DNA of 64,000 nt from Methanomicrobiales archaeon HGW-Methanomicrobiales-3 (GTDB lineage Archaea; Halobacteriota; Methanomicrobia; Methanomicrobiales; Methanospirillaceae): the NCBI GenBank assembly GCA_002839605.1, contig PGYK01000001.1, forward strand, positions 310,001-374,000, read 5' to 3'. The notes below the pieces were generated by a model. The model was not told where the DNA came from. It made no database searches and worked only from the letters and a program-made list of their open reading frames with translations. Made by a program: the position numbers and the translations under genes. Of this stretch, positions 1-60,520 are shown piece after piece. Positions within the stretch are counted from its first letter, which is position 1; each line of letters starts with the position of its first letter.

Positions 1-1942
1 GGACCAGATGGCCCCGGTTATTGCGGAACTGTACCGCCATAACCTGTTCCACATCGAGGAGTATGTCGATGCCGGGGCAGAAGGCTACGAGGGCTTTAAG
101 ATAGGTTCGCCTCTTTCAGGTGCAAGCGAAAAGTCCGCCGATCTTATCAGGATCCGGGCTATGACCAACGCCGTCGCACTCAGTGCAGACGACGTAGATG
201 CAGCCCCGTCCTGTTCGCGGGACGAGCTGCAGACAAGAATCGAAAAAGAACTTCCGGTTCTTGCGCGGGAAGTCGAAGAGCTGACGGTCAGGCGCTCAAA
301 ACTCGACACCCGGGTAAAGGAACTCGAACAGAAGATTGTCGAGATCACCCCGTTTCTGGATGTACCGGCTGACCTGAATCTGTATCACGGTTACAAGAGA
401 TTCACCACCATTGCCGGCTACGTCTCCCGCGAAGTTATCATACCCGTCCCCTGCGAGATGCATTTCTCAAAAGGGAAGGAGAAGAATTTCCTTGTTGTTG
501 TGTACCCGACCGAGCAGAGGGCAGATGTTGAAAAGGCCCTTGCAGAAGCCGGGTTCCAGTCGGTTCCCGTTCCAAACGAGTCCGGGTCCCCGAAAGGCCG
601 CATCGAGTTTTATCAGGGCGAGATTGCGACCCTGAACAGGGAGATCGAAGAGATCAGCAGAACGCTCGACCAGGTCAAGGCAAAACACGCGAGTTTCCTT
701 GTTGCCTGTGAAGAGCTCCTAAAAGCAGAAGTTGACCAGACCGAAGCCCCGCTCCGGTTTGCAACAACGAAACAGACGTTCGTTGCAGAAGGGTGGGTCC
801 CGACAGATCAGGTCACCGCGGTAACAAACTCCCTTGTCCATGTTGCCGAGGGGAAGATCTTTGTAACGGTATTGCCAACAGACCTCGAGCATGATTCTGT
901 ACCGGTGGAATACAACAACCCGGACTTTGCCAAACCAACGCAGGTCTTAATGGATGTGTATTCCCGGCCCAGTTACACCGAGGTTGACCCGACCCTGATG
1001 ATCGCTGTCGTATTTCCCATCTTCTTTGGGTTGATCCTTGGCGATGTCGGGTACGGCCTGATACTCCTGATTATGTCCATGGCGCTTCGGAAGTATCTCA
1101 AGGGCGAAGCAGGCAACCAGTTGCTTGACGTTTTACGAAACGCCAGTCTGTCAAGTATCTTCTTTGGTATCATATTCAGCGAGTTTCTGGGCTTTGCAAT
1201 TCCCGGGTGGAACCCGGTGCTGTACTCCCGTCACCTCATGTCAGGTGAGCACGGCGGGCATGGCCCGAACATTCCGGAACTGATGGTCCTGTCCATCTGG
1301 ATCGGTATTGCACACATCACGCTTGGCAGGCTGCTTGGCATGTACAACCATGCAAAACAGGATCATGGTCACCACCGGACGCTTGCCGTTATGGCGAATT
1401 TCGGGTGGCTTGCCGTGATGTGGGGGATCATCCTTGCAATCTGGTCGGTAGCAGCAGTTCCGCTGATGCCCGACTTTACCGGTCTTCCGGCGCTTGCAAC
1501 CGTGCCGGGTCTCGGGCTTGGCCTGAATCTTACCATGTTCATCGGAGGAGCACTCATCCTTGTGGGTATCATCTTCATTGCACGGGAATCCGTTCTTGAA
1601 GTGATCGAGTTGCCCACGATCGTGTCCCACGTGCTCTCGTATGCCCGTATTGTTGCGGTCGGCCTCTCGTCGGTCGCCATTGCAATGGTCGTGAACTTCA
1701 TGACCTTTGATATGTTCATCAATCCGGCGCTTGAAAATTTCTCGATTATCAGTATCGTTCTGATCCTTATCGGTCTGGGGATATTCCTCTTCGGGCATAC
1801 CCTCAATATCGCTCTTGGGATCCTGGGTGGCGGGCTCCACTCGATTCGTTTACATTATGTTGAATTCTTCACCAAGTTCTACAAAGGTGGAGGCAGGAAA
1901 TACAATCCCTTTGGGATGAATCGCAGATTTACGGAGGAATAA
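1..1942 (+). CDS. atpI: A-type ATP synthase subunit I (5' partial)
   Basis: This is the membrane stator subunit a/I of the archaeal A1AO ATP synthase, which forms the ion half-channels against the K ring and links to the peripheral stalk. The soluble N-terminal part has two coiled-coil stretches (about residues 65-110 and 200-245, counted from the ATG at 8). From about residue 330 there are seven or eight membrane helices. The conserved arginine of the ion path lies in LSYARI near residue 547. The reading frame is open through base 2 and the usual family N-terminus is missing, so the gene probably starts upstream of the window and the ATG at 8 is internal. It is the first visible gene of the I-K-E-C-F-A-B-D operon. 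Confidence 0.95.
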   Translation, partial: DQMAPVIAELYRHNLFHIEEYVDAGAEGYEGFKIGSPLSGASEKSADLIRIRAMTNAVALSADDVDAAPSCSRDELQTRIEKELPVLAREVEELTVRRSKLDTRVKELEQKIVEITPFLDVPADLNLYHGYKRFTTIAGYVSREVIIPVPCEMHFSKGKEKNFLVVVYPTEQRADVEKALAEAGFQSVPVPNESGSPKGRIEFYQGEIATLNREIEEISRTLDQVKAKHASFLVACEELLKAEVDQTEAPLRFATTKQTFVAEGWVPTDQVTAVTNSLVHVAEGKIFVTVLPTDLEHDSVPVEYNNPDFAKPTQVLMDVYSRPSYTEVDPTLMIAVVFPIFFGLILGDVGYGLILLIMSMALRKYLKGEAGNQLLDVLRNASLSSIFFGIIFSEFLGFAIPGWNPVLYSRHLMSGEHGGHGPNIPELMVLSIWIGIAHITLGRLLGMYNHAKQDHGHHRTLAVMANFGWLAVMWGIILAIWSVAAVPLMPDFTGLPALATVPGLGLGLNLTMFIGGALILVGIIFIARESVLEVIELPTIVSHVLSYARIVAVGLSSVAIAMVVNFMTFDMFINPALENFSIISIVLILIGLGIFLFGHTLNIALGILGGGLHSIRLHYVEFFTKFYKGGGRKYNPFGMNRRFTEE

Positions 1943-14336: not shown

Positions 14337-14855
14337 AAACCTGTCCGAAACCTCATGAAGCGATCGGGATCGCGTTGAAATGCCGGGCGGGATCAATCGA
14401 AGATCGATTTTTCTGATCCAAACGCGATCATGATCGCGATTGAAATGCTCTGCCGGATCGATCAGGGTTTGATTTTTTATTTTCAACCGGATCGTGATTT
14501 TTTCAGATCAATCAGGATCCGATTGAAAATTTTTCAGCAGACTTTGATTAAAAAACCGATGAATATCTGGGGGTTACGACGGAACGCGGTGTTGCATATC
14601 TGGTTAACTTTTCGCAACCAGACTTTGATTGATTTTTTTTGGGCAGACTTTGATTGTAATTTTTTCAGCACGATCCGATTATCCAAATTCAATCGCGATC
14701 ATGATCGCGATTGAAATGCTCAGCCGGATCAATCAGGGATCGATTTTTCATTGCAAAACGGATCGTAGTTTTTTCGTCAATCACGATCCGGTTGAATTTT
14801 TTCCATCCACCTTTTCTTTTCATGCGATCATGATTCAAAAAAACTGTATCAATCG
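14337..14855. repeat. AT-rich intergenic repeat block A (GATC-dyad repeats)
   Basis: This is the main content of a roughly 600-base gap with no convincing gene. It holds three copies of a unit beginning with a GATC-containing dyad followed by TTGAAATGC, then CGGGATCAATC/CGGATC and GATCGATTTTT (starts about 14361, 14423 and 14694). The second and third share an exact 28-base match 271 bases apart. GCAGACTTTGATT recurs about 14538, 14619 and 14643, and TTAACTTTTCGCAACCA lies at 14604-14620. The same elements recur on the opposite strand at 60.05-60.5 kb. Short open frames inside are low-complexity by-products of the repeats. Confidence 0.85.
14688..14715. repeat. 28-bp perfect palindrome inside repeat block A
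   Basis: TTCAATCGCGATCA is followed at once by its exact reverse complement. The whole is a 28-base palindrome with no spacer, holding nested GATC sites and a central ATGAT. It is the longest exact palindrome I noticed in the window. Confidence 0.95.
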
Positions 14856-60049: not shown

Positions 60050-60520
60050 TGATGCGGATCGTCCGGTGCCCAATTGAAAACGAAAAATCAATGTTTGATT
60101 GTTCCGGATCGCTTTTTCGATCGAGATCGTCATCGCGTTTGATTTTTCAAAATCAAAGTCTGCCAGAAATTTTTCAATCAAAGTCTGCTCAAAAAATTTC
60201 AATCAAGGTGTGGTTGCGAAAAGTTAAATGGATCTGTATGGGTTGGTTTTGCCGGTTAACGCCGGAAGCGATGCTCCGTACACAAGATTTCAATCAGGGT
60301 TCGTTCAGATTTTTTCAAAATTTTCAATCATGGTTTGATTGAAATTTGAAAACCGGATCGTGATTGATCCGGATCGGTTTTTCAATCGCGATCGTGATCG
60401 CGCTGAACTTTTTTCAATCAGGGTCTGCTGAAAAATTTTGCATCATGATCTGGTTGATCCCGATCAATCCAATTCTGGTTATCCGGCATGGATTGCGATC
60501 CGGATTTTGCATACGATCCC
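60050..60520. repeat. AT-rich intergenic repeat block B, inverted copy of block A
   Basis: It fills most of a 608-base gap between the ABC ATPase gene and the DUF98-MptG gene. On the minus strand it repeats elements of block A: TTAACTTTTCGCAACCA exactly (60211-60227), TCAATCACGATCCGGTT exactly (60351-60367), a 24-base AAAATTTTTCAGCAGAC... stretch (60416-60439) with two differences, and several GCAGACTTTGATT units (about 60155, 60179). A GCGATCGTGATCGC dyad is at about 60389. No gene is apparent inside. Confidence 0.85.

Follow-up and report, generated by a model that had tools for sequence, protein, structure and literature searches.

A dispersed family of non-coding palindromic repeat arrays with conserved spacing in Methanoregula genomes

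Two related blocks and the plan of the repeat unit

We found two AT-rich, intergenic blocks, related to each other on opposite strands, in the 64,000-nucleotide stretch of DNA analysed here (the window). Block A (14360..14841, plus strand) is neighboured by an alpha/beta-hydrolase gene and a methyltransferase gene, and block B (60060..60505, minus strand) by convergent ABC-transporter and GHMP-kinase-like genes. The GC content of the blocks is 39.5%, compared with about 55–60% nearby. They contain 20 GATC in 471 bp and 13 in 441 bp, where 4.4 per 470 bp are expected from the window average, which amounts to a four- to fivefold excess in A and a threefold excess in B. Their inverted match extends over 158 bp (74%). 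A preliminary description had recognised two homologous, GATC-dense blocks in opposite orientation, as these values confirm, and had listed two exact 17-mers common to opposite strands; there are three (TTAACTTTTCGCAACCA, TCAATCACGATCCGGTT and AAAATTTTTCAGCAGAC). It had also placed the blocks in gene-free gaps with no ORF. Every copy that we looked at is indeed intergenic, and no conserved reading frame, gene or transposase was found in the element. Elsewhere in the window, a tandem pair of related membrane transport genes (PF03547; 15533-17563) is the source of DNA repeats spaced by 1065 bp.

An alignment of 27 copies from three species gave the plan of the unit: a repeat named R, three 25-bp units, a spacer, three further 25-bp units and a second R. 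R is a direct repeat of ~90 bp at both ends, centred on the palindrome CGCGATCATGATCGCG; it contains the palindrome CGCGATCNNGATCGCG, then GATYGAAAAA and usually GATCCGGATCAATC. The same alignment has no inverted pair spanning the element. Thus, the earlier statement that terminal repeats are lacking is right for inverted repeats and wrong for direct ones. The 25-bp unit, TTTTCAATCRAACCTTGATTGAAAA, is imperfectly palindromic, and the variable spacer is bounded by the conserved words CGTCGTG and TTAACTTTT. A half-site, TTTCAATC/GATTGAAA, underlies the palindromes of both the 25-bp units and R. Three dyad centres of the consensus are complementary at 10 or more of 12 positions, compared with 0.08 such centres in shuffles, and the R2 dyad is complementary at 12/12. 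In several loci, the units are arranged in tandem with R in common, at a period of 281 bp. A CRISPR array was rejected because the 25-bp units abut without spacers (starts at 240, 265 and 290 in one copy) and all parts are conserved between loci.

Block A contains one R-core-R element (profile match 14405-14746) of the 26-bp spacer class, with partial repeat units on both sides. All its features are given on the plus strand. The first R copy, R1, has the perfect palindrome CGCGATCATGATCGCG at 14423..14438. Within the 5' half, positions 14526..14549 hold the 25-bp unit AAAATTTTTCAGCAGACTTTGATT, whose first 17 bases are common to block B on the opposite strand. The spacer (14577..14603), between CGACGG and TTAAC, measures 26 bp when counting starts at the inner G; the more usual length is 36 bp, a difference of one helical turn. 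The 3' half starts with the conserved word TTAACTTTTCGCAACCA (14604..14620) and includes two 25-bp units, CAGACTTTGATT...GCAGACTTTGATT (14619..14655). R2 has the palindrome CGCGATCATGATCGCG again (14694..14709), as a direct repeat 271 bp downstream of R1 and 90 bp after TTAAC. A further partial unit with the 17-mer TCAATCACGATCCGGTT, common to block B, lies at 14777..14793.

Block B likewise contains a single R-core-R element (profile match 60408-60084), oriented opposite to that of block A, together with partial units, and one of its 5'-half 25-bp units is 16 bp shorter. On the minus strand, the R1 palindrome CGCGATCACGATCGCG lies at 60387..60402 and the conserved word TTAACTTTTCGCAACCA at 60213..60229, with a spacer of the 36-bp class. 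The 3'-half 25-bp units (60151..60200, minus strand) read AATCAAAGTCTGC...AATCAAAGTCTGC on the plus strand and are exactly 25 bp apart. R2 is a degenerate palindrome, CGCGATGACGATCTCG on the minus strand (60122..60137), 265 bp from R1.

Copies in the genus and conserved spacing

The preliminary description had suggested a non-coding repeat family whose copies could be counted in the genome and in relatives; it would have been refuted if these two blocks had proved the only copies, or fragments of a transposon, tRNA or rRNA. A search of the organism's own 2.59-Mb genome with block A DNA gave more than 100 matches in about 25 clusters, several with E below 1e-30, which rules out a chance likeness of two AT-rich gaps. 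Depending on the threshold, there are about 16 to 28 distinct loci, with dispersed, non-coding arrays of ~350 bases. Neither this genome search nor Rfam pointed to a known transposon or RNA gene: in the window and eight element loci, only tRNAs reached the gathering score, and a permissive Rfam search of block A gave only implausible sub-threshold microRNA matches.

We then searched 108 genomes of the taxonomic family with a profile model built from the 27 copies. The arrays are present in 27 of the 39 Methanoregula genomes, and none of the 69 genomes of other genera (16 genera) has a match. The array family has so far been found only in the genus Methanoregula. An R-specific word gave a similar picture: 37 of 39 matching stretches are in Methanoregula or Methanomicrobiales MAGs, and the remaining two, in Leptolyngbya and Bradyrhizobium, look like chance. 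Copy number and distribution differ between species. Genome G073, which we take to be M. formicica SMSP (2,820,858 bp), has one nearly full copy, at 2007453-2007809 of its sequence, and fragments. Genome G011, presumably M. boonei 6A8 (2,542,943 bp), has no match in the profile search and is one of the 12 of 39 Methanoregula genomes without one; members of the genus can therefore do without the arrays. The 2.8-Mb genome of M. formicica SMSP has been published (PMC4155587). A setting between convergent genes is seen for 16/35 copies, compared with 12/59 in the window. We found no paper on Methanoregula repeats or on this array family in the literature searched, which left most subscription journals outside.

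The distances inside the element are strongly kept. With a mean raw divergence of ~28% among copies, R1-to-R2 is 280–282 bp in 22/27 copies and TTAAC-to-R2 is 90 bp in 26/27. In nine further genomes, nearly all or most of the well-aligned copies keep R1-to-R2 at 279–282 or 270–271 bp. An alignment-free count placed R 90 bp from TTAAC in 40/42 copies. In its detectable range of 18 to 47 bp, the spacer was 26 bp (5 copies), 35 bp (3), 36 bp (25) or 37 bp (3), and took no other value. The sequence of the spacer is nearly free while its length is kept. A tree built without the spacer columns requires four changes of the 26/36 class, and well-supported branches force three of these, a number that exchange between copies could reduce. 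The most natural interpretation of the 10-bp step, which is roughly one turn of B-DNA, is that the two halves of the element must keep their rotational setting.

The elements have about 80 substitutions per gap in the multiple alignment and 14.6 when a permissive pairwise aligner is used; for ordinary intergenic DNA, compared between the sisters G018 and G021, the value is 7.4. The magnitude of the constraint is therefore method-dependent, and the fixed-distance counts are unaffected. These data show a length constraint on the elements, its exact size aside. By itself, such a constraint cannot separate a host function from the element's own needs.

Inherited and new positions, and the replication origin

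The positions of the arrays are partly inherited and partly new. By their flanking genes, G018 and G021 carry the same loci, with different numbers of tandem units. The element beside the methyltransferase gene of block A is also present in G018, G021 and G019, and hence in four species. A copy named C16:49k occupies the same place as the 803k copy of G018, and G021 has no element there. At 1210k, G021 has only a solo R-like stretch, where its G018 counterpart has two units. The locus of block B is different. Here, G018 and G021 have no element, only 50–60 bp between the same gene pair, and G005 and G019 have a gene instead (a GNAT-like gene was lost or gained in relatives, and the empty site is not clean). 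The lack of the element at this locus in relatives indicates that copies do reach new places. The closest relative of block B is the C16:49k copy, at 87% over the element and with 100/96 tree support; the likeness spans R-core-R and fades outside. We also observed a genome with two genes resembling V/A-type ATPase subunit I (window 8-1942; L035 955-2892), the second of which adjoins the copy closest to block B.

In G018, the segment between the elements at 967k and 1033k is inverted relative to G021, and both ends lie inside elements. The two G018 copies at the ends are nearly alike, and their two G021 counterparts are alike in another subtype. Inversion ends in arrays and this pairing of subtypes point to recombination between inverted copies, with exchange. 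The rearranged region, an origin-near inversion ending in inverted element copies, lies at 962-1039 kb in G018 and 912-991 kb in G021 (L136, L137, L146, L147). In the same two genomes, GC-rich stretches that contain long runs of C or G (CCCCCCACCCC, GGGGGGG) adjoin arrays or lost array sites (L139 5800-5900; L161 7120-7250; L174 2030-2330). They look like a second intergenic repeat family.

We then investigated the position of the loci relative to orc1-1, which is found at 938 kb in G018, 889 kb in G021, 883 kb in G086 and C16:154 kb in G000, and which is adjoined by ORB-like motifs (TTCCAGTGGAA). Within 150 kb of orc1-1, a limit picked after the data were seen, lie 5/11 loci in G018 (P 0.002), 4/10 in G021 (P 0.015), 4/13 in G086 (P 0.04; weak, with P 0.12 for mean distance) and 5/16 in G000 (P 0.03). 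On the G000 contig carrying orc1-1, which makes up 19% of the genome, lie 9/16 loci (P 0.001). The enrichment is thus significant in G018 and G000 and weaker in G021 and G086. Combining six species gives a P of 2e-5 (G017, G019 and G005 added as orc1-1 contig against the rest, G021 left out); these species are not independent and have some loci in common by descent. No origin enrichment was seen in M. formicica (G073). An enrichment of strong copies near orc1/oriC is likely in several species and weak in others, with loci shared by descent, the post hoc limit and the lack of the pattern in G073 tempering the case. Stabler gene order near the origin could also preserve old copies there.

The preliminary description had also proposed plotting orientation relative to replication. 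Within 350 kb of the origin, 27/35 copies point away from it (P about 0.001). We do not claim this as a rule, since loci are shared by descent and G018 and G086 show no unusual orientation runs. In G018 and G021 a copy lies near the second orc1 gene, but a connection between the two was rejected: the intervening gene is mch, and nearness elsewhere was not shown to exceed chance. In both genomes, this second orc1/cdc6 gene directly adjoins mch (methenyltetrahydromethanopterin cyclohydrolase), with an element remnant downstream of mch (L132 5954-8092). Both also have weak, degenerate element-like units ~2 kb from the origin (L162 10108-10334; L173 10653-10877). The element itself was rejected as an ORB or replication origin motif because its consensus differs and it lies tens to hundreds of kb from orc1-1.

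Alternative explanations and a possible chromosomal role

Tentatively, we regard the blocks as arrays of dyad-symmetric, putative protein-binding sites rather than genes, perhaps with a chromosome-organising role. The preliminary description had offered chromosome organisation, protein binding and an origin in a small mobile element. The first two agree best with the palindromic units, the base-exact or one-turn spacing and the origin enrichment; a mobile origin keeps the new site of block B in its favour. We suggest that a putative dimeric DNA-binding protein of Methanoregula would occupy the half-sites in R and in the 25-bp units that flank the spacer. Both halves would have to face the same side of the helix, so that one nucleoprotein complex could form per unit, across the spacer. 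Several such complexes around the origin may contribute to the folding, anchoring or partitioning of this chromosomal region. Of these proposals, we hold binding to be more secure than a role in organising the chromosome.

The main rival, which seems to us rather unlikely, is a selfish, non-coding element that is MITE-like or depends on mobilisation in trans, and whose R-core-R would move through a host or element enzyme acting at the R palindromes. Tandem units and solo R would then be products of recombination at R, and the spacing would serve the element's own need, because a trans-mobilised element is also under pressure to keep its spacing. This would account for a block B whose close match to C16:49k covers R-core-R and fades outside, and which is absent between the same genes in G018 and G021. 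It would also suit the variation in copy number and distribution between species, and the solo R-like stretch of G021. However, no inverted terminal repeats or target duplication were seen, and the block B locus, with its GNAT-like gene lost or gained, is not a clean empty site. The R word has no relative in viral contigs and nothing matches in phage and plasmid records, which makes a virus or plasmid origin seem unlikely. Moreover, several loci are inherited in place, as block A is in four species, and the copies are diverged, unlike those of a recent burst. The arrays share with MITEs a short, non-coding, dispersed and AT-rich nature and some species-specific insertions, but differ in their direct R repeats and inherited positions, and neither inverted terminal repeats nor a target duplication was seen.

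A neutral tandem or dispersed repeat that has no binding partner and is maintained by gene conversion and unequal exchange would explain why the number of tandem units differs between orthologous loci and why the inversion-end copies resemble each other within G018 and, in a different subtype, within G021. Neutral exchange, however, predicts no rule by which the spacer loses its sequence but keeps its length or shifts by exactly 10 bp, and we consider this explanation improbable. Quite improbable, in our view, is a transcribed structured RNA or transcript-end element forming hairpins at the 3' ends of neighbouring genes. Placement between convergent genes is frequent, and the folds of individual copies are better than those of shuffled sequences, whichever strand is taken (z -2.4 to -6.3); but folding of both strands is expected of any palindrome array, half of the loci are non-convergent and no Rfam family was found. 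Nor is there a common fold: the consensus energy is -13.7 kcal/mol over 377 columns with a covariation term of -0.9, so weak that a consensus RNA fold was not adopted.

Known systems offer partial parallels to putative binding arrays. The parS sites of bacteria are clustered around the replication origin (PMC12284271). ParB and parS (ParABS) resemble the arrays in having several palindromic sites of 16-bp scale per chromosome and, in part, in their clustering at the origin. However, parS sites are single and of other sequence, whereas Methanoregula arrays are at least 350 bp long and their origin enrichment is incomplete; moreover, ParB (PF02195) was found in none of six Methanoregula genomes, with positive controls. 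Archaeal SegB sites (SegAB) are palindromes scattered over the chromosome, with a proposed link between folding and segregation (PMC12284271, PMC5120986). They are alike in this scattering, but the 13-bp SegB motif TCTAGA-S-TCTAGA (PMC12284271) is absent from the window and its core AGASTCT from blocks A and B. On plasmid pNOB8, the winged-helix dimer AspA nucleates on a 23-bp palindrome and spreads over 200 bp (PMC5120986). Compared by description only, unit and array sizes are similar, whereas AspA has a single site on a Sulfolobus plasmid. Bacterial REP/BIME sequences are many dispersed intergenic palindromes that form composite blocks, serve as sites for host proteins and are kin to mobile elements (PMC2817692). 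The arrays are likewise dispersed, intergenic, palindromic and composite. They differ in direct rather than alternating units, a longer conserved unit, about 10–30 copies instead of hundreds and a fixed or one-turn spacing; as the units are direct, the resemblance is one of kind and not of family.

A more specific proposal, which we put forward as doubtful, is that the arrays are centromere-like or origin-domain-organising sites with a partner other than a PF02195 ParB. On this view, higher-order repeats with helical phasing would make up an archaeal counterpart of origin-proximal parS. Against the literature searched, the novel features are that the units are arranged directly and at a higher order, that the spacing follows a rule of one helical turn and that the arrays of a methanogen genus are enriched in the origin region.

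To our knowledge, the chromosome-organising or partitioning sites of methanogenic euryarchaea are hardly known. The family offers a sequence bait and a spacing rule of one helical turn that can be tested at the bench, with a cultured host, M. formicica (one nearly full copy), to set against a cultured relative, M. boonei (no match). It also provides an example of repeat-mediated inversion near an archaeal replication origin.
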